NCBI RefSeq assembly: GCF_011516925.1
Contig: NZ_WOTG01000008.1
Coordinates: 1-64,000 of the forward strand
Length of the DNA stretch: 64,000 nucleotides
Direction of reading: 5' to 3'
From: Acetobacter fabarum
GTDB taxonomy: Bacteria > Pseudomonadota > Alphaproteobacteria > Acetobacterales > Acetobacteraceae
The first letter of the stretch is position 1. Every line of letters begins with the position of its first letter. Both the position numbers and the translations under genes were made by a program. A model generated the notes under the pieces. That model was not told where the DNA came from. It saw only the letters and a program-made list of their open reading frames with translations, and ran no database searches. Below are positions 24,475 to 34,255 of the stretch, in pieces.

Positions 24475-25575
24475 CCGCCTGCGGAATCTTCCGGTCGGGC
24501 GGCGCGTTTTCTCTATGAGGGGAGGGAGCATGATGGTCCCGATCCGCATGGGATGCTTCATGCCTTCGTGGACCGTAGCGACCGGCTGCTGGCCCTGCTC
24601 GACGGCTTCATGCCCGAAGCCTCCTGGCTGGATGACGGCGAAACGCTGACCTATCTGCACAGTACTATTTCGACCCGGAACCAGCGCGTCAGGGTGCCGG
24701 AAATCCCGATGCACCTCGACGTGCTACTGGTGGATCAGCCGCTGTCGGGTGGTCTGGAACCGAAGCTAGGTGATGCCTATCTGAAAACCCTAACCACTAC
24801 CGGTTTCCCATCGCGGACATTTCCCGGGATCCTCGATGACCTGAACCGGCTGGCGATGCCGTATCGCTGGTCCACCCGCGCCATCCTGCTCGACAAGACC
24901 GATGCCACCAAGGTTCTGACGAAGATCCGGCGTCAGTGGTTTGCAAAACGCAAGAGCATTGCGGCCATTGTCCGGGAGGTCATGGCCAACGAAGCATCGG
25001 TTCTGGTGGACAATGACGCCGCCAACAAGGCCGCCGACGCTGACCTCGCGCTACAATCGCTGGGCGCGGATGATGTGGGGCAGGCCTATATCACCGCGAC
25101 CGTGACGGTCTGGGACGGCTCTGCCTCGATTGCTGCCGAGAAGTTGCGCCTCGTGGAGAAGATCATCCAGGGCCGCGACTTCACCTGCATGACGGAAAGT
25201 CTGAACGCCGTGGAGGCCTGGCTTGGGAGCCTGCCCGGTCACGTCTACGCCAATGTGCGTCAGCCCCCGGTCTCGACCCTGAATCTGGCCCATATGATTC
25301 CACTGTCCGCCGTGTGGGCAGGGCCGGAGCAGGATGGGCATTTCAAGGCAACGCCGCTGTTCTATGGCAAAACGGCAGGAGCTACGCCGTTCCGCTTTTC
25401 CCTGCATGTCGGTGATGTCGGGCACACCCTGATCGCCGGACCGACGGGGGCGGGGAAGTCTGTGCTGCTGGCGCTCATGGCGTTGCAATTCCGGCGTTAT
25501 GCAGGTTCGCAGATTTTCGCCTTCGATTTTGGCGGCTCCATGCGTGCGGCTGCGCTCGGTATGGGCGGAGACGCG
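24475..25575 (+). pseudogene. trbE: TrbE conjugal transfer ATPase, internal fragment
   Basis: About 365 codons match TrbE/VirB4, the ATPase of trb-type mating channels: the N-terminal CagE_TrbE_VirB part (LLDGFMPEASWLDDGETLTYLHS, quoted in part; RNQRVRVPEIPMHLDVLL) and the Walker A GPTGAGKS (about 25438-25462) followed by FAFDFGGSMRAAALGMGG. The protein should go on for another 350 or so residues with Walker B; instead it changes at about 25570 into a DUF2274-like tail. This is a remnant of a conjugative element of the Acetobacteraceae/proteobacterial trb type. Confidence 0.85.
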
Positions 25576-26095: not shown

Positions 26096-26288
26096 AGACC
26101 TGCTGCTGTATGCTGAATTGGTCTCGGAAAAAGCAGGGGAGGCGGCAGATGCCATCCCCGATGCGGCCAGGCTGGTGCCGCTCATGGTCGGGCGTTTTAT
26201 GGAGACAGATCGGGCCTTCCAGAAACGGCGGCGGGACAGAAAACCAGCACCTGTCGCGGGAACGACAGGCGTTTCCAGCGAACGGTAA
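26095..26288 (+). pseudogene. DUF2274 C-terminal fragment, copy 2
   Basis: The frame reads LLLYAELVSEKAGE, then AARLVPLMVGRFMETDRAF and a basic tail ending at 26288, matching the last 60 or so residues of DUF2274. The start is missing. Together with copy 1 it flanks the LysR fragment, suggesting that two related trb elements recombined here. Confidence 0.55.
26160..26230 (+). repeat. 71-bp diverged direct repeat, copy 2
   Basis: Partner of 25570-25640; see that entry for the substitution pattern. The pair encloses the LysR fragment. Confidence 0.85.
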
Positions 26289-26317
26289 CGCAGATTTTGC
26301 ACGCAGTGGCAGCGTCG

Positions 26318-26600
26318 TCAGTCTGTTTCCATTAACCGCTCCCGGTGCCGTAGTCGGGGAAGGACACGGACGATAAGAAGCCCCGTCGTCGTCAATGAGA
26401 TAGAGGATATGGTGAGCCCGATGACGGTGGAGCCGTATCGGTGGGTCGAACTCACGACGTTCCGGCGCAAGCTGCTGAGGTGAGGCGATAAGGTCGAAGG
26501 CGTCCGCCAGTCCTGTATGGAAGGCCTCGGTTCGCTGTGGCTCGAATTCTTTGATACCCTACATGTAGATGCTGACGATGCTATCTTTGACGAGGCATGT
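26318..26600 (-). pseudogene. parE: ParE-like toxin, broken
   Basis: Reading the minus strand gives ParE/RelE-superfamily pieces: SIYM, then a TAG at 26559-26561, then GIKEFEPQRTEAFHTGLADAF, RREFDPPIRLHRHRAHHILY and LIDDDG. A frameshift near 26385 is followed by LLIVRVLPRLRHRERLMETD and a stop. The set is in the right order for a ParE gyrase-poisoning toxin, but one stop and one frameshift destroy it. Confidence 0.7.
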
Positions 26601-26664
26601 CTTTGCTACAGGTCGGCATCCGTCGTCCTGCTATCCGCGCGCGCATCCTGCAGCAACTGCTTCA

Positions 26665-26859
26665 TGCTCCTGGTCCCAACGCCGCTACGCAGACCAGCCG
26701 TGATGTGGCCCTGAACCCATCATGCGCCGCACGGGTCTCCTGATCATGCCAGATTAACTCGCGGACGTAGTCGCTCGCATTGCTGTAGCGTCCCGTCCTA
26801 GCTTGAGTCTTTGCCCGTTTCTTTATGGGGTCCGGCAGGGATACGTTCATAGTTGCCAT
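26665..26859 (-). pseudogene. parD: ParD-like antitoxin, frameshifted
   Basis: From the ATG at 26859 the protein reads MATMNVSLPDPIKKRAKTQ and then YSNASDYVRELIWHDQETRA, the ribbon-helix-helix N-terminus of ParD. The frame then leaves the family at about residue 50. The expected C-terminus (GVGTRSMKQLLQDAR) is found in another frame slightly downstream (about 26620-26680). It is directly upstream of the ParE remnant in transcription order, as in ParDE operons. Confidence 0.75.
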
Positions 26860-26965
26860 GGATACCTTCGATCTCAACGATGACAATCTTTAGCAATCCC
26901 TTTCAACGAATTTGAGACTTGGTGCGGTCTTTCGCGTCTGGATAACATGCTGTGTGAGCGTACCT

Positions 26966-27005
26966 AGAGCAATTCCACTGAACTAAAGTTCAGTGGAATT
27001 GCTCT
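26966..27005. repeat. Perfect 18-bp inverted repeat, 4-nt loop
   Basis: Positions 26966-26983 pair exactly with 26988-27005 around TAAA. It lies 14 bp beyond the stop of the DGQHR gene and could end its transcript, but no T run follows on either strand. Its perfection and its position at the border between decayed trb DNA and the AT-rich block also fit a mobile palindromic unit or element end. Confidence 0.85.
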
Positions 27006-27018
27006 AATTCATTGTTTA

Positions 27019-29421
27019 TCATGAATTTTCACTAGTTTGGATGTGTCCATTCAAATTGGCTCTGCTCTGGGAGGGATTTAAACCAAGGCAGTCATGAATT
27101 TTTGTCAATAGTTCGACGTCGCTTTTGTTCAATCCTTTTTCTTTTGTTCCTTCGTGAGCCCAGTTATTTCTCAGCGTGTTAAAAAACGAAATCCATTTTA
27201 TCTTGTCGGCTTTGCTGTTAAAGCCGTGCCCGATATCTATTGAAAAATGCTGCTCGAAGGACAATGCGTTTGCAGTGCCTTCGGGTTTTTTTGACCAATA
27301 TTTCTCGATAATCGTCTTGTAGTCTTTGATGAAAAACTGATCTGTCCATGGTATTTCGCGACGTCCAAGCCCGTCCTTATAATCTTTTTCCATCTGCTCC
27401 TTCGCGCGCATCTCGCACTCACGTTGGATCGTGCCAATCTCGATATCCCAATTTTCGCCAAACAGTGCTTTTAACTGTTTGATAATAAAACTCTTCATGT
27501 GTCGTTCAATCTGGGTTCCAAGATCCCGACCAGTGGTCTGGAGCGCCTTATCTTGTCTTTCTCGCCAATCCTGCAATTCAGGCGGATCGTAATCAGCGAA
27601 GTTTTTGTTAATATATGCTTGGAAAAACCGTAACCAAGTTACCTCAGCACCGCTGCCAAGCTTTCCACTTAATATTTCAGCATCCTCTGGTATCATTGAT
27701 TTCAATGCATTGAAAAGAACCAGCAGATACTTCCCAATAGCGTCTATCCGTTGCTCGGTGGTAGATTTAATCGAAATAGAGTTTTGTTTGACTTCAAATG
27801 CATGGAGATCGCCGATAAGTGATATAAAAGCGAAGCTGCCTCGGTTTGATAAAATGTAGGTGCCTAGTACTTCTTGATCTTGTGCAAACGATTCTTCCGC
27901 CATTACGTAACTGGCGTTGATAAAGCTTACCGTTCGACTCCTCGCCTTCATCATCTCGTCATTATGATCAACATTTGTGGTGTCATATAGCGATGGGGTG
28001 GCCGTTCCCTCGATAAATTTGTTGCCTTTTGCCACGGGTAACAACTTGCACTTGATAAGTGCGTCCGCGAATGGTTTAGCCTGAAGCATCGATCGGTCTT
28101 CGCCAAGAGAGATCTTGCCATAAAGGGGGCCGGATGCGTCTCCGCTAAGCGCTCGAATTACGGATGAGCGAAGGGCCTTTAGTCGTGAATCCAGACGATT
28201 AGAATTCCAGTATAAATCTTCTTCTAGGGTAATTCGCAAAGTGGGGGTAACTGCCTTCTGATTCTCGTTAATCTGCATGAATAACTCAAGCTGATCGCCA
28301 GGCTCGAGGTTTTTGAAGGCGACGACCGGTATCGTGTTGTTCGCTTTGTATTTCGAGTTCGCATACCCGTAAATCCGATGCTGCCCATCAATAATATAAG
28401 CAATCGCAAATGCATTCGGAATTTTTAATATGCCAGTTCTAGAAACAGAATCCTTTGAACGAGGTTGGCCTTGAAAATCGAGTTTTGTCTCGCGTTCGTT
28501 AAAATTTAGAATCGCTGAATTTGGAAAGAAACCTCCTCCATCGATGAATTTAGTGATTCCTTTTAGACGAGATGGGAGGAGAAGACGCTGGTAGGTAGGC
28601 ATCTCAGACTCGTTGGCGCGAGTACGGTGCAGGACAAAACCTATCTTCAGAAGTAATTCAGGTTCTAAAGAAAACATATAATATGTTTTCCCGCCCATCG
28701 TACCTTCAATAGCTGGGACCTCTATTTTCGTTTTATTGATGTTTTGCCCTTTCATTATCAAGCCCATAAATTGATAATGAGCAGCATCCCGATAAGACTT
28801 GAGAAGACTTTCTATATAATCGAATGTATTGTCGTTGTAGTAGAATCCACCAGATTCCATTAGTCTTACTATGTCGGCCGAATCTCTACTTAGTCTCAGA
28901 TTTCTAGTCGCAAATATGTATTTTATGCGCCTGCCAGGACCAAATATTTGATCAATTGCTTTCCGATAACCATCGAGACGGAAGCGTAGCGCTTCGAATT
29001 CGGTTTTGTAGGAGGGAGCTCTGGCGGGAGTTTTGCTCGACTTACATTCGACGAGCAACACGCTGTCGTCGTCGATCGCAACGACGTCGATCTGTTTCTT
29101 GTCGGATGGATTAGATCCAAAAGGCAGACAAAAATTTTCGTCCACATTGAGCATGCGATAGCCGAGACGATAAAGTTGGCACCAGATGTCGTCTTCAAAT
29201 TGGACGTTGTGGCTCTTTGATTTTCGAAGGTGCGTCTTCGTTTTTAAGGGTTTTCCATATTCTTCCCAGCCTTCTTCGAGCAAGTCTTCGACTAGACTGT
29301 GTTCTACACTACGGGAATGAAATTTGGATAACCTTGCCTTATAGAGCTTGCCAAGTTGGGACTTGTCTTTGCTCATCTTTTCACGAAGTAAGGCTGCCTC
29401 AGCAGGATCGATAAACGGCAC
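27019..29421 (-). CDS. DGQHR-domain protein with nuclease-like N-terminus and HEPN-like C-terminus
   Basis: I prefer GTG at 29421 as start because GGAGG lies 5 bp upstream; TTG 29433 and ATG 29376 are alternatives. Numbering from the TTG (804 codons): residues about 75-180 look like a PD-(D/E)XK nuclease, with QIDVVAIDDDSVLLVECKSS giving D116, E129 and K131. Residues about 240-500 form a DGQHR domain (IIDGQHR at 347-353, QINENQKAV at 388-396), the ParB-like family that includes the phosphorothioation regulator DndB. Residues about 690-785 contain RNNWAH (755-760), an Rx4H motif as in HEPN ribonucleases. No dnd sulfur-modification genes are nearby. It follows a DNA adenine methylase by 113 bp on the same strand. 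I infer a defence role, as restriction or abortive infection; function is unproven. Confidence 0.8.
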   Translation of the reverse strand: MPFIDPAEAALLREKMSKDKSQLGKLYKARLSKFHSRSVEHSLVEDLLEEGWEEYGKPLKTKTHLRKSKSHNVQFEDDIWCQLYRLGYRMLNVDENFCLPFGSNPSDKKQIDVVAIDDDSVLLVECKSSKTPARAPSYKTEFEALRFRLDGYRKAIDQIFGPGRRIKYIFATRNLRLSRDSADIVRLMESGGFYYNDNTFDYIESLLKSYRDAAHYQFMGLIMKGQNINKTKIEVPAIEGTMGGKTYYMFSLEPELLLKIGFVLHRTRANESEMPTYQRLLLPSRLKGITKFIDGGGFFPNSAILNFNERETKLDFQGQPRSKDSVSRTGILKIPNAFAIAYIIDGQHRIYGYANSKYKANNTIPVVAFKNLEPGDQLELFMQINENQKAVTPTLRITLEEDLYWNSNRLDSRLKALRSSVIRALSGDASGPLYGKISLGEDRSMLQAKPFADALIKCKLLPVAKGNKFIEGTATPSLYDTTNVDHNDEMMKARSRTVSFINASYVMAEESFAQDQEVLGTYILSNRGSFAFISLIGDLHAFEVKQNSISIKSTTEQRIDAIGKYLLVLFNALKSMIPEDAEILSGKLGSGAEVTWLRFFQAYINKNFADYDPPELQDWRERQDKALQTTGRDLGTQIERHMKSFIIKQLKALFGENWDIEIGTIQRECEMRAKEQMEKDYKDGLGRREIPWTDQFFIKDYKTIIEKYWSKKPEGTANALSFEQHFSIDIGHGFNSKADKIKWISFFNTLRNNWAHEGTKEKGLNKSDVELLTKIHDCLGLNPSQSRANLNGHIQTSENS

Positions 29422-29534
29422 TGCGTCCTCCAAATTCTCAATGTCGGCTGTAAGCTATATTAGAAAATGAATGTTGATTTGGTGTCATTAAGAAGCCATC
29501 TCTTGTTGGGATCGGCCTACTTGAGTGGGTGACT

Positions 29535-30467
29535 TCAATTGACAATCTTCTCGCTGATCAAAGGTCTACTTAATGTCTGATAATTGCTTGCTTCTGGTGC
29601 AGACCTACAAGAGACAGTTGCGTTGTCGATGTGTGCGTCCAGCCATGTTTGGATTACGAGTTCCTCCGTTTGGCTACGGTGTGCTTTGCTTGCGGCTAGC
29701 ACACTAGCGCGTCCGACGACCTGCTGCCGACCCACGCCATCATATATTTCACGGATTGAGGAATGGTTGGCATTCGTTACTAGTACTCGGGCTCCACGCG
29801 CTGCAGCACGGACAACGGCATCCCGCAAGCGTAATTGGTCCGACCATGAGAAGATTTTGTCATTATATTTAACGAAACCGTTTAGATTGTGCTTTACAGT
29901 GTAAGGTGGATCGACGAACACGAAGTCGCCATCCTCTGCTTTATTCAGTGTCACCTCAAAATCCTGCTGTAAAATCTCAACGCCTGATAGGAGGCGGCTT
30001 GTCCCGACAAAGTCATCGTTCGGTAGTAGGACGCTAGTCTTAGTGCCGATAGGCACGTTAAACTCATTCTTGCGATTGACTCGATAGAGGCCATTCCAAC
30101 ATGTCCGGTTCAGGTAAATGAACCATGCCGCGCGTTCGACTGGATCATTAGGCTTTACTGCTCGGGTATCGTAATAATATGCCTTGTCATGTAGCCGATG
30201 ATATTCTGTTAGGCGTTCGATGATGTCTTCCGGGGTATCGCAGACGGCACGGTAACAGTTGATAAGGTCTGGATTAAGATCCGATAAGACCGCTTCGGCG
30301 GGCCGGAGTGCAAAAAACATCGCCCCGCTTCCGAGGAATGGTTCAATATAACGATTATAAGTCTGCGGCGTCAGGTGGAGACAACGGTCTGCAAACCAGC
30401 GTTTTCCACCAGCCCATTTCAGGAAGGGTGCCAACGTTGGTATCTGCTGAGGTTTAGAACCGCTCAC
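29535..30467 (-). CDS. D12-class DNA adenine (N6) methyltransferase
   Basis: The 310-aa protein starts at GTG 30467, 4 bp after an AGGAAGAG site. FLKWAGGKR (15-23) and FLGSGAMFF (44-52) bind S-adenosylmethionine and VDPPY (185-189) is the catalytic motif IV. The order and the NRTCWNGLYRVNRKNEFNVP segment identify the Dam/DpnM class (MethyltransfD12), most of which modify GATC. An orphan Dam is possible, but its place upstream of a nuclease-like DGQHR gene, in a low-GC accessory block, suggests that it marks self DNA for that protein. Confidence 0.93.
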   Translation of the reverse strand: MSGSKPQQIPTLAPFLKWAGGKRWFADRCLHLTPQTYNRYIEPFLGSGAMFFALRPAEAVLSDLNPDLINCYRAVCDTPEDIIERLTEYHRLHDKAYYYDTRAVKPNDPVERAAWFIYLNRTCWNGLYRVNRKNEFNVPIGTKTSVLLPNDDFVGTSRLLSGVEILQQDFEVTLNKAEDGDFVFVDPPYTVKHNLNGFVKYNDKIFSWSDQLRLRDAVVRAAARGARVLVTNANHSSIREIYDGVGRQQVVGRASVLAASKAHRSQTEELVIQTWLDAHIDNATVSCRSAPEASNYQTLSRPLISEKIVN

Positions 30468-30842
30468 TTAACTCTTCCTCCTGGTCGCGAGCCGATGCCC
30501 ATGACCAACTTTTGCTTCCCATTTCATCTGTCACCGCGTCTTTTCCAAACTCAGAAACAATCTTGTGACGTCTAGGATATCGAAATGGCGACTTTTGTAA
30601 CAGCCCTGATGATGCCGCAGGGCAACGAATTTCGTCCTCATATCGTTAAGCTTTCATTAGTCGACGTTATATCATTCGTGAGACATGATGCTGGAATCGC
30701 TAATTTGAAGGAAGCTTAGCCTTTCTCACTTGTGCTGGCATTAAACGTGATGAAAATGAATTATTTGCCGAATCTCATGCTGATATAATTTTGTAGCTTG
30801 CGGCGATTAGGCGCCATATTCTCCGCAAGGGGTGCAGGGAAT

Positions 30843-31061
30843 ATGGCGCGATACGTTTTTTATCACCATGAAGACTGGCTCGGCTTCCAGTGGGACAAGG
30901 ACACCATTTCCCATGAACTGGCCGCGGTGCGTCACCGGCAGGGGTAGATTCTGGGCCGAATGGAGAGCCTCGGTTTCGATTTCAGGTCGGAAGCCGTGCT
31001 CCAGACCCTAACCGAAGATGTCATCAATCCAACCCATCAAACCCCGAAACTAAACACGTAA
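30843..31061 (+). pseudogene. Fic-family protein, N-terminal fragment
   Basis: The frame reads MARYVFYHHEDWLGFQWDKD and later VRHRQG, then a TAG at 30945-30947, then ILGRMESLGFDF and LQTLTEDVI. This is the DUF4172 N-terminal module of Fic AMPylating proteins. The Fic catalytic domain is absent: similarity stops at about 31035. The fragment is on the opposite strand to its neighbours and interrupts the space between the ATPase and methylase genes. The remaining part of the gap (30468-30842) holds no gene I can support. Confidence 0.8.
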
Positions 31062-31115
31062 ACTAATTTCGTCAGTAGGCTATAGCGGCGCTCCCTGAAA
31101 CATCCTTGTCTAGTT

Positions 31116-32852
31116 CTACCAGTTGATCGCTTGCTTAATCATGCTCTGAATCCCTAAATTTCTGAGTTTAAGAGCGATGGTAGAAGACTGATCGATCGCT
31201 CCCTTTCGATGCAAGGCATCGTTGTATACTACTCCTAGTAGAAAGCATGCTTCCGGGACGGAAATACCTATAGATTCGGCAAAGTTGAGTTTGTTTGCAG
31301 TGCCATTATACTCGATTAGAAACTTCTGTCGCTCCGGTTGCGTCTGGATTTTAGAGTAAGTGCATTGCTCGATTTCCACTCGGACATAGGCACATACTGC
31401 GAAAGGATCGTAACATCCGCTGCCAGAAACACACTTGTCCCATTCTTCTTTCAAAAAGGCGTAGAAGTTATGACTTTTGCCGTGCTTCTTCGGTAATCCA
31501 TATTGAGTGTTGAATATATCTGAGATGTCATAGTTGTCGGGATGGTAATGAAGGAAGTATCTCGATAATTCTTGTGCCCAACATGTATCATTCCGGTGTG
31601 TGATTACTTTTCGCATAGTTTCACTAATTTTCTGGGTTGTGTCTCCCAGGTATATGGTCTGCTGGCGCTTAAGTGCGTAGCCTTTGAAATACAGTGGATC
31701 TAGGTGGGTTAGGAGGCAAACGTAAATCTGCCTACTCTCCTCCCGATACGTATCGATTAATTTGCTTATGAAGTATTGAGCAACAACGATGTTCGCATCA
31801 TCAAGATAATCGAAGACTTCATCGATCAGCAGAATGCAGGGTTTAGTGCTAGTTGTCTCCCGCGTTAGTAGCAAATTGCAACCGAAGTAAAGAAGATCGC
31901 GTTGCCCATTTGAGAGCGACGAGGCATCAGGAAAATTGACTAGGACGCGACCTTTGGTCTCTTTTATTTCGGCAGTTACCCAAGCTCCATTAATGTCTCT
32001 GATGAAATCTTTCAAAGATTGCAGACGCCGGGAATACGCGGCGTATTGTAACCATTTCTTCAGGTTCGGCCTGTCGGATTGGCTTAAGTCCATCAGTATG
32101 TAGCATATGATGGCGCAATCAAGCCAAGAAGAGCTCCCTTGCCCGTGTTTCATCACCACATCAAAGACGGCCTTGAAATGTGGCAGTTCATTAAATTTCT
32201 GAGCGTATTCGGCTGCGACTTTGTTGCTAATTGACGCTTTTGTTCCGCACAGACTCTTTATCGTTTCGATCATTTCTTCGAACAAGTCAGATGATTTTTT
32301 TTGCTTGATCTTGTCTATAGAGGCGATGACGCCAAGCAATTCACTTCTGAGAAGCTCGTCGTCGTACTGGGTAGATATGTTAGGGACAACTTTGGAATTT
32401 ATTCCGAATAACGGCTTGTATTTATTTATATTAAAATTCAACTTCTCTTTTTTAAGAGATGGACCAAGGTCAAGTGATGGAATTTCTAAGTAAGGTTTTG
32501 CTACTGTGAAGCCATTTATTTTTGGAAGTTTAGCTTTTGGTTCAATGTTCGACTTAATTACATGAATATCAAATTCATTTGATATTTCATTCAGGTTTGG
32601 ATCAGCATTCAGGGTTTTTCCACCGTATTCAATGGAAAGGCGTGATACCGCCGTGTTTTTTTTCTTGTGTTTGTCTTTTTCGTCAATATTGAGTTTGTTG
32701 CCCTTGGCGCAGTTGAAAGCCGTAGAAATGCTGCTTTTGCCGAAGCCATTCGGTGCAACAAGTATGTTAGCGCAATTTGGGCGAATATTAACCGTCAAAG
32801 TTACCTTTTCAAAACCACGAATATTTTCGATGTGAATTTTTGAGATAGTCAC
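31116..32852 (-). CDS. SMC/ABC-type AAA ATPase of unknown function
   Basis: The 578-aa protein starts at GTG 32852 (AGGG 7 bp upstream). APNGFGKSS (33-41) is Walker A, LSNGQ (313-317) is an ABC signature and ILLIDE (340-345) is Walker B with catalytic Glu, followed by a DYLDD D-loop. The opening SKIHIENIRGFEKVTL is the N-terminal strand of RecF/SMC/OLD-like ATPases. The inserted middle (about 60-290) is lysine-rich and short for a coiled coil. Residues 400-578 match nothing I know and include several Cys and His. No TOPRIM motif is apparent, so it is not a classic OLD nuclease. It is upstream of, and on the same strand as, the methylase and DGQHR genes. It is AT-rich, as expected of transferred defence genes. 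Confidence 0.85.
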   Translation of the reverse strand: MTISKIHIENIRGFEKVTLTVNIRPNCANILVAPNGFGKSSISTAFNCAKGNKLNIDEKDKHKKKNTAVSRLSIEYGGKTLNADPNLNEISNEFDIHVIKSNIEPKAKLPKINGFTVAKPYLEIPSLDLGPSLKKEKLNFNINKYKPLFGINSKVVPNISTQYDDELLRSELLGVIASIDKIKQKKSSDLFEEMIETIKSLCGTKASISNKVAAEYAQKFNELPHFKAVFDVVMKHGQGSSSWLDCAIICYILMDLSQSDRPNLKKWLQYAAYSRRLQSLKDFIRDINGAWVTAEIKETKGRVLVNFPDASSLSNGQRDLLYFGCNLLLTRETTSTKPCILLIDEVFDYLDDANIVVAQYFISKLIDTYREESRQIYVCLLTHLDPLYFKGYALKRQQTIYLGDTTQKISETMRKVITHRNDTCWAQELSRYFLHYHPDNYDISDIFNTQYGLPKKHGKSHNFYAFLKEEWDKCVSGSGCYDPFAVCAYVRVEIEQCTYSKIQTQPERQKFLIEYNGTANKLNFAESIGISVPEACFLLGVVYNDALHRKGAIDQSSTIALKLRNLGIQSMIKQAINW

Positions 32853-33271
32853 ACGTCGCCCTACGAATCATTAGCTATTGCAATGATTTAAACTTAAGGC
32901 GCACTTCCGTGCTTAGGCAAGTGACAGGCATGTTACCTTTGTTCCCTGAAGCAGGCTATCGAAAGCTTTCTCATTTGCGACAACTTAGAGCGCGTTTACT
33001 GAATTCTGGATCATTTGGGTTACACCTGAAGAGAATTGTGTTTCACCGTTTTCATTGGCGGAGACCGTGGATGGCATGCGTGCAACGATATTCCGCTTTG
33101 GATGGGCGTTCAGATGCAGAGGCCGTGTAGTCCTGTGAGCGGACTTTTCCTCGACCGAACGTTACCGCTTCAGCGGAAATAAGCCGATATTTTCTTGATT
33201 TAAAGTGTTAAATCTCTGGTGTTGTGTAATTATATTGCCACCTGAAGTGAATGTGGGTATCGGTGTCTGCG
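32853..33271. other. Unassigned stretch upstream of ATPase gene
   Basis: About 420 bp lies between the ATPase start and the att-like repeat. Short ORFs (such as 32909-33130) show no family motif. The part near 33180-33240 is AT-rich. Leftward promoter elements for the ATPase gene are likely here, but I could not place them with confidence. Confidence 0.4.
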
Positions 33272-33459: not shown

Positions 33460-33670
33460 TCAGTGGAAATTGCGCGATCTGACGACGAGACGTTCACTGC
33501 CTAAGTCTATGTCGACTGTGGTGTCTGCGGAGGATCGGTTCCCGACATCGGCCAGCAATCCGGAAAGGTCCGTGATCTCTTTCGCGACCAGATGCACGAC
33601 CTCGCCCTCCTTCTGCAGCATGCCTTTCACGGCCAGCATCTGCCCGCCCAGCACCACACGCCGGTTGGCG
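33460..33670 (-). pseudogene. dnaE2: Error-prone polymerase DnaE2, C-terminal remnant
   Basis: The minus strand encodes RRVVLGGQMLAVKGMLQKEG, EVVHLVAKEITDLSGLL and a final VVRSRNFH before the stop at 33460. These match the OB-fold tail of ImuC/DnaE2, the translesion polymerase of the SOS mutasome. The other 1,000 or so residues are gone: the gene is cut at 33671 by the left end of an IS5-type element. imuA and imuB are not present. Confidence 0.8.
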
Positions 33671-34255
33671 GGCTTTGTTGCAGAAATACTGGCAAGGGAT
33701 TCCCTGTTTGAAACCAGTTTGTTAGCTGTGAGTGATGAGCAAGCCGAAGCGCACACGCTACCGAACGACGAACTGGTCCTCCTACAACGCAGCACTGAAG
33801 AAGCGTGGGTGTCTGACGGTGTGGTTTGACCCGTCCATGAATTGGGAAGGTCTTCCGACGGGGCGCCGCGGTCGTCAGCGGAGTTACAGCGATGCTGCGA
33901 TCCAGGCCTGTCTGACGCTGAAGGTTCTGTTTGGTTTTGCCCTGCGACAGACGACGGGCTTTGTCGAAAGCCTCCTGCGCCTGGCGGGGCTGGCATGGTC
34001 TGTGCCGGATTTCAGCACGCTGAGTCGTCGGCAGAAAGCCCTGACGGTCGATATCTCCTATCGCAGTTCAGACGGTCCGCTTCATCTTCTGATCGACAGC
34101 ACGCGATTTCGACCGTCAGGTCACCGAAGTTCATGTCCGGATCGCCGTCCTCAATCGCTTCACAGCCCTCGGAATCCCCCTCACGCACCCTGTCGCGTCA
34201 GAAAACCCCTCAAAGATTGCAGCACGCCCAATCGCTGGAATTGTGCAACAGAGCC
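33671..34255 (+). mobile_element. IS5-family (IS903-like) element with internal deletion
   Basis: Ends are GGCTTTGTTGCA (33671) and TGCAACAGAGCC (to 34255), imperfect inverted repeats like those of IS903. The transposase frame from 33732 reads MSKPKRTRYRTTNWSSYN, then RGRQRSYSDAAIQACLTLKV and VPDFSTLSRRQKAL, and reaches DDE residue region LLIDST. It then jumps to a C-terminal piece (EVHVRIAVLNRFTALGIPL) at about 34110. A full copy is about 1 kb, so roughly 400 bp including most of the catalytic core is missing. No 9-bp target duplication flanks it. It is inactive but could be moved in trans. Confidence 0.85.

Follow-up and report, generated by a model that had tools for sequence, protein, structure and literature searches.

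Three genes lie in a row on the minus strand of a 64,000-nucleotide stretch of the Acetobacter fabarum genome (positions 1 to 64,000 of contig NZ_WOTG01000008.1; the window), coding for an SMC/AAA_15-type ATPase, a D12-class adenine DNA methylase and a protein with a DGQHR domain (the effector), and they raise the question of whether they make up a new defence system and which of them belong to it. In the original prediction, made from the letters of the window alone, all three were joined in one system, the ATPase by a weaker link across a 650-bp gap, and its DGQHR protein would sense the state of DNA modification and then cut DNA or RNA. In a listing of open reading frames (ORFs) of at least 60 aa between 22000 and 38000, all three genes are indeed open and intact, at the positions given in Table 1. 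The methylase and the DGQHR gene are a real, widespread and mobile module, and very probably a defensive one, with the look of a little-described immunity to viruses and plasmids.

A genome scan recovered relatives of the DGQHR protein at 71 loci, down to ~30% identity, in Pseudomonadota, Bacteroidota, Actinomycetota and other groups. For counting, long-form relatives were defined by a profile score of at least 150, which gave 82 after the window genome's own copies and a 143-aa fragment (L071) were dropped; near-duplicates were kept, and a few truncated or broken genes (e.g. L014, L056 and L085) are included. Upstream sequence of 700 bp or more was available for 75 long-form relatives, and 71 of these, across several phyla, have a D12 methylase gene within 1.5 kb on either side, so that the two genes are neighbours in unrelated genomes, a recurrence on which the original prediction hinged. 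Counted among these pairings are three divergent enzymes that Pfam confirmed as D12 (L032, L054 and L067) and, at a contig edge in L019, a match that is weak and partial (43 bits); the four unpaired relatives are L038, with a D12 gene 2.6 kb off in the same gene run, L044 (4.0 kb), pNL1 (none) and the broken gene of L085. The methylase usually comes first, with a gap of –4 to about +60 bp before the DGQHR gene. In a phylum-wide control the DGQHR domain was found in 24 of 398 genomes (30 matches), and within the ~1.5 kb fetched the methylase adjoined both long-form genes (that of the window included) versus 1 of 28 other DGQHR matches. The reciprocal control, on 385 genomes of the class, gave 20 non-self methylase matches: the two closest (53% and 48%) adjoin a long-form DGQHR gene, and the remaining 18 have none within the ~1.5 kb fetched. 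On viral contigs, all six long-form copies among the matches listed adjoin a methylase.

Structure models and profiles predict that the effector joins a PD-(D/E)XK nuclease part, a ParB-type fold for binding nucleoside triphosphates (NTPs) and a helical region that bears a HEPN motif. Its DGQHR assignment is firm: TIGR03187 matches residues 241-447 (E 2.8e-33; 115.8 bits, cut-off 58.85), the DndB family PF14072 matches at E 2.2e-11, and the DGQHR motif is invariant in 57 of 57 aligned proteins. The protein falls short of the curated thresholds of TIGR04172 (DGQHR_dnd_1; 71.3 bits, threshold 450) and of the DpdB equivalog NF041060 (55.5 bits, threshold 300), and at E ≤ 1 in PADLOC-DB 2.0.0 (2023) it matches only DpdB, over residues 235-442 and thus not at full length. 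In keeping with the earlier suggestion that no described system has this set, no PADLOC-DB 2023 or NCBIfam model spans the whole protein. An AlphaFold2 (AF2) model was built from 56 sequences (mean predicted local distance difference test score, pLDDT, 88; predicted template-modelling score, pTM, 0.77), in which residues 75-212 resemble AF1548 (1y88; Z 11.1, root-mean-square deviation, rmsd, 2.8 over 119 residues). Looser PD-(D/E)XK matches of the N-terminal 230 residues were Card1 (Z 8.7, rmsd 7.7), Cdn1 (Z 8.4), N.BspD6I (Z 8.2, rmsd 4.0) and FokI (Z 7.6, rmsd 2.9). Residues 244-393 resemble ParB-type nucleotide-binding domains (7bm8, Z 8.8, rmsd 2.8 over 99 residues; PadC, Z 8.7), and binding of ATP and GTP by a DndB-like protein is described in PMC12704722. 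A PDB sequence search with the effector profile gave no match at E ≤ 1, and raw Foldseek searches with the full model and the C-terminal model gave none at E ≤ 0.001.

A separate model of the C-terminal third is helical (pLDDT 92), and this third carries an RX4-6H motif, the combination that marks the HEPN superfamily. HEPN_Swt1 profiles match 35 of 56 such C-terminal parts at E ≤ 0.1 (best 2e-6), the window's own at E 0.021, which is below the Pfam cut-off; the HEPN assignment is made on the RNxxxH motif and this profile, not on a fold match. The window effector has the nuclease residues D116, E129 and K131 and the HEPN-like R755-N756-x3-H760, so the nuclease-like and HEPN-like motifs read in it earlier hold up as a predicted PD-(D/E)XK domain and a HEPN motif. 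All three nuclease residues are kept in 45 of the 57 aligned proteins, the HEPN R and H in 54, and both sites strictly in 42; K131 is replaced by R in three. In nine proteins the nuclease site is lost with the HEPN R and H intact, and every one of these still has a D12 gene within 1.5 kb, which suggests that the nuclease is dispensable in nature and argues against a plain restriction enzyme. Three others (L019-L021) keep the nuclease site and lack the HEPN residues.

The D12 assignment of the methylase is equally firm (PF02086, E 6.4e-48; TIGR00571 dam, E 9.5e-70), and its nearest solved relative is DpnM (2dpm, E 5.6e-57), aligned over residues 10-272; ~35 C-terminal residues extend past the portion that aligns with relatives. 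PADLOC-DB adds a weaker match to PD-lambda-5_B, on the D12 domain only (E 8e-10). In 49 aligned methylases DPPY is invariant, as are the F and first G of the motif for binding S-adenosylmethionine (AdoMet) and the hairpin residues N125, G126, R129, N137, V138 and P139; our best guess is a GATC-like site whose first base is uncertain. The window effector shares 79-85% identity with its counterparts in Stappia, Phyllobacterium, Sphingomonas, Sphingopyxis, Pelagibacterium and one further isolate, and nests in that group in the effector tree with support of 100/100, whereas the window methylase is 49-51% identical to the five aligned methylases of those relatives, which are 79-89% identical among themselves. 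Placement of the window methylase in the corresponding group of eight was rejected (approximately unbiased test, p 0.00065, for a group picked after the identities had been seen). A similar mismatch separates L028 from a DpnII-type locus (effector 66%, methylase 31%). These comparisons indicate that the methylase has been swapped in this genome with the effector retained, and apparently also in L028; over all 47 pairs the two proteins do vary together (Mantel rank correlation 0.41, a value reached by 0 of 999 permutations). The exchange favours communication through the DNA mark over a private protein contact, since an effector could take on a new methylase more readily if it read that mark.

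In seven Bacteroidota loci a D12 methylase, a DpnII-type nuclease and the DGQHR protein are encoded in that order, in what we take by family to be GATC restriction operons. An N6/N4 methylase gene comes next in six of them, and the seventh (L036) stops at a contig edge. The nuclease was recognised by PF04556 in L024 (E 4.5e-95) and by BLAST in the other six (36-84%). Loss of the effector's nuclease site where DpnII is present was considered and ruled out, as the five aligned rows from DpnII-type loci (L024, L025, L031, L059 and L060) keep it.

The position of the pair within the genus bears on its function. Among 49 genomes of the genus, with at most six candidates scored per genome, a DNA search found the pair and the ATPase in their own genome only, and several other genomes carry the flanks. 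In G1044 (L196 1878-5683, contig G1044:C39), gajA and gajB (GajA, E 5.5e-271; GajB, E 3.9e-239) lie between the same left flank (26097-26947) and an unbroken fic gene. The slot of G1042 (L198 1987-8254, contig G1042:C66) is taken up by one OLD/GajA-like gene, one DUF2130 gene and a third whose product weakly matches HSDR_N, and that of G1043 (L197, contig G1043:C49) holds genes that look metabolic by eye. Within the genus, the slot between the left flank and fic is thus a hotspot for cargo genes, and in one close relative its cargo is Gabija, a proven defence system. Our defence reading leans on this slot comparison instead of on PADLOC neighbourhood content, which was mixed around 12 chosen relatives: in 87 ORFs of at least 180 aa, considered with no control set, 19 PADLOC models were matched, 18 of them in a single ORF each (e.g. 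OloA/OloB, DrmA/DrmD, RmrA, ZacC and PD-T4-6) and Hydrolase in three.

The reading that we favour, to which we give an even chance, is a defence module of two genes gated by methylation, in which the appearance of unmarked DNA would set the effector on DNA and RNA. The Dam-type methylase would place its mark on host adenines within a GATC-like site, and the DGQHR protein would contact DNA through its N-terminal nuclease part, with the ParB-type domain serving as an NTP-binding switch. Unmarked DNA, on entering or accumulating, would cause the switch to free two outputs, namely cleavage of the unmarked DNA and cleavage of RNA by the HEPN domain, the latter leaving the infected cell stalled or killed. 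It is plausible that the DGQHR protein reads the modification state, as first proposed, and the DpnII-type operons accord with this. Several observations weigh against this module or fail to support it. The C-terminal domain has no clear fold match, the Csx1-Crn2 entries among its weak helical matches reaching no more than Z 3.3 and 2.1. No protein of the 57 lacks both active sites, a count that is uninformative given a chance expectation of ~0.5. DNA cutting by the effector would be redundant in loci with DpnII, and two distant long-form relatives (26-29% identity), on pNL1 and on an Agrobacterium plasmid that lies outside the count of 75, have no D12 methylase annotated within 5-6 kb. Finally, the methylase position that we equate with EcoDam Y138, whose numbering and role we assume here, carries K or R in 41 of the 49 aligned enzymes and Y in six, from four DpnII-type loci and from L020 and L021; the true site may therefore deviate somewhat from GATC.

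The simplest competing account is plain NTP-dependent restriction-modification (R-M), in which the effector would be the restriction enzyme for unmethylated sites and its C-terminal domain structural. The pairing of a methylase with a nuclease, the D/E/K residues in 45 of 57 proteins and the loss of HEPN residues beside a kept nuclease in L019-L021 all suit such an enzyme, but we regard it as unlikely given the nine proteins with the reverse pattern and their nearby D12 genes, and given the seven loci where a DpnII-type gene already stands beside the effector. A guard of the PrrC kind would instead be silenced by contact with the methylase or an R-M complex, its HEPN domain firing when a phage inhibits that complex; links of this logic between HEPN and R-M are proposed in PMC3710099, and the place of the effector within DpnII-type operons is in line with them. 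The exchange of the methylase beside an effector kept at 85% identity sits less easily with a private contact surface, and this guard seems to us quite unlikely. DpnII-type nucleases cut unmethylated DNA, and their presence next to the effector speaks against an SspE-like or type IV response, in which the methyl mark itself, not its absence, would stimulate the effector; a methylase resident in 71 of 75 loci would, moreover, demand extra control of such a protein. Improbable as we find it, this response has precedents in GmrSD, whose ParB/Srx-type DUF262 domain bears a DGQQR motif in the part of PMC4619093 consulted, and in SspE, which is called a DndB equivalent in a passage of PMC10853773. 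A selfish addiction pair, which would chiefly kill cells that lose it, could likewise consist of two genes in mobile surroundings with a patchy presence, the pair being confined to one of the 49 genomes of the genus at the depth scored; such a pair is hard to reconcile with a slot that houses Gabija or an OLD-type gene in congeners, or with its presence in DpnII-type operons, and we consider it very improbable.

Inclusion of the ATPase, which the original prediction allowed, was not supported by comparison. It matches SMC_N, AAA_15 and AAA_23, and only the last just above its curated cut-off. Relatives of the ATPase occur on a Sinorhizobium meliloti plasmid (87% identical), where a run of TIR-annotated genes adjoins it, in Agrobacterium (72%), behind a cytosine methylase gene and a small ORF, on a viral contig (83%), near an ORF that resembles an integrase by eye, and, more distantly, on a Brochothrix plasmid (29.6%). 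None of the first three accompanies a methylase–DGQHR pair, and a BLAST search for the ATPase over the loci of the DGQHR relatives found no match besides the window. The gene has its own block of DNA homology (31059-32987) and, from its relatives (loci L160 and L161), looks like a mobile unit of its own. A three-gene system could appeal to the adjacency seen here and to two Bacteroidota loci, L032 and L038, where the neighbours of a DGQHR gene encode a D12 methylase, an ATPase of the AAA_15/21 type and an HNH-type protein; the ATPases of these loci have no significant BLAST similarity to that of the window, which with the other settings and the separate homology block makes such a system scarcely credible.

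The two-gene module may have kin with other outputs. In what we call layout B (Table 1), a methylase and a short DGQHR protein are joined by a protein of 157-258 aa with two to five hydrophobic segments, which looks like a separate three-gene system; in layout C, the DGQHR protein has ~500 aa and the added protein 424-447 aa. The added proteins had no Pfam match in the four checked (L082, L083, L148 and L154), and the remaining ones were grouped by position, size and hydrophobicity. The methylase gene is on the opposite strand in L146 and L159. In a quick methylase tree, all 12 methylases of layouts B and C fall in one group of 36 rows, with the layouts interleaved, together with 23 methylases of long-form loci and one that has no DGQHR neighbour; such interleaving is expected if one shared core has been fitted with changing effectors. 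At slightly below even chances we hold the proposal of a family of immune modules gated by DNA modification, in which a core of Dam-type methylase and DGQHR/ParB-type switch would take varied effectors (a nuclease–HEPN fusion, a small membrane protein or the 424-447 aa protein) and exchange its methylase, the switch responding to the methyl mark instead of to the methylase as a protein. On the Zymomonas plasmid pZZM405, DUF4433 and macro-domain genes, the combination known from DarTG, come after layout C. The Zymomonas ZM4 methylome has no GATC methylation in the part of PMC8432527 consulted, but the sequenced strain may have lacked pZZM405 with its DGQHR-linked methylase, and the methylome was not used as evidence. 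In the Bacteroidota loci L032 (9893-16155) and L038 (6043-12232), the D12 methylase beside the DGQHR protein is divergent, and the ATPase and HNH-type genes mentioned above lie with it, a further way of putting these components together. Distant long-form DGQHR proteins at L084, L183 and L184 have no annotated D12 methylase; genes for radical SAM and ATP-binding proteins adjoin them at L084 and L184, as does one for a short DGQHR protein.

Comparison with known systems places the pair near several of them. GmrSD (DUF262 plus DUF1524) and SspE have an HNH nuclease, whereas the effector has an N-terminal PD-(D/E)XK domain and an added HEPN-like domain, and its partner is a D12-class adenine methylase. 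In common are a ParB/Srx-type NTP-binding domain, a DGQ(H/Q)R motif and the tie to a nuclease and to DNA modification (for GmrSD, PMC4619093). DndB and DpdB share the DGQHR domain (TIGR03187, PF14072), but the TIGR04172 and DpdB models, of 352-381 positions, match only effector residues 238-443, and 27 of the 28 other sampled DGQHR matches, of unsorted kinds, have no D12 gene in the ~1.5 kb fetched. The DpnII-type R-M operon (D12 methylase, DpnII nuclease and N6/N4 methylase) has the same DpnM-type methylase and in seven loci contains the DGQHR gene; unlike it, the window pair has no adjoining DpnII-type gene, and the DGQHR protein takes the place of DpnII. HEPN proteins linked to R-M, PrrC among them, are treated in PMC3710099, whose Table 1 (2013) lists Saro_3948, a fusion of HEPN (Abi2/Swt1 family) and ParB, and another HEPN family, MAE_28990, whose operons also encode a ParB nuclease and DNA methylases. 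PrrC differs in its ABC-type switch, the present effector having a nuclease domain in the same chain and a D12 partner. Saro_3948 is likely the pNL1 long-form protein, and the consulted part of PMC3710099 mentions no D12 link for it; MAE_28990 is known here by its listing in that table. Earlier publications already cover the theme of HEPN–R-M coupling, a protein that joins ParB to HEPN, and one HEPN family encoded together with ParB and methylases. For the D12-linked system, its nuclease domain, the exchangeable methylase and layouts B and C, no prior description was found in the literature searched, with preprints and most subscription journals outside it, and PADLOC-DB 2023 has no model of the D12-linked system. 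If the methylation-gated module is real, a defence based on adenine methylation would have as its switch the DGQHR domain, which is widespread and familiar from DndB and DpdB. The pair is directly testable, loci with a decayed DNase or HEPN site would let the two outputs be probed one at a time, and the natural exchange of methylases poses the clean question of whether the switch reads the DNA mark or the methylase.

Table 1. Features of the locus in the window, and related loci by layout
Feature	Position or loci	Strand	Basis or remark
SMC/AAA_15-type ATPase ORF	31116..32852	-	separate module, apparently outside the system
D12/Dam-family adenine DNA methylase, 310 aa	29535..30467	-	PF02086, TIGR00571, DpnM 2dpm
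Effector: predicted PD-(D/E)XK nuclease part, DGQHR/ParB-type fold, HEPN-like C-terminus, ~800 aa	27019..29421	-	
Predicted PD-(D/E)XK domain of effector, residues ~75-212	28798..29211	-	AF2 model match to AF1548
DGQHR domain with ParB-CTPase-like fold, residues 239-447	28093..28719	-	TIGR03187, ParB 7bm8
HEPN-like helical domain with RNxxxH, residues ~629-785	27079..27549	-	HEPN_Swt1 profile and motif
Start of a broken fic gene (DUF4172), at the right edge of the slot holding the pair	~30843..31055	+	
Layout B loci (n = 8)	L079, L083, L094, L142, L146, L148, L149, L155		
Layout C loci (n = 4)	L082 3145-6807 (Zymomonas plasmid pZZM405), L151, L154, L159		

The effector more likely starts at 29421 than at 29433, because the ORFs of several relatives (e.g. 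L006, L016 and L017) open at residue 5 of the longest ORF; its gene is present in a single copy in the genome. The Fic fragment noted between the methylase and the ATPase was confirmed as a broken DUF4172 N-terminus on the plus strand with an in-frame stop. The AT-rich block described earlier stands out sharply on its left side only: GC content is 41-49% in 27001-33000, compared with 56-62% over 3 kb on the left and 47-55% over 5 kb on the right. A TrbE-like stretch (~24564-25572) and an IS5 transposase stretch (~33670-34105) common to Acetobacter and Kozakia plasmids, both found by DNA matches, point to surroundings of mobile DNA of the acetic acid bacterium type. Two further D12 methylases are encoded elsewhere in the genome (G000:C23:13414-14232 and G000:C1:810-1502). 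Directly downstream of the effector gene lies a perfect 20-bp inverted repeat (26965-27006), unique in its own genome, and the ~105 bp around it (26964-27078), present several times in the congener G1038, may be a small mobile element. Beside the broken fic, a 40-bp sequence (31021-31062) recurs in many genomes of the genus.

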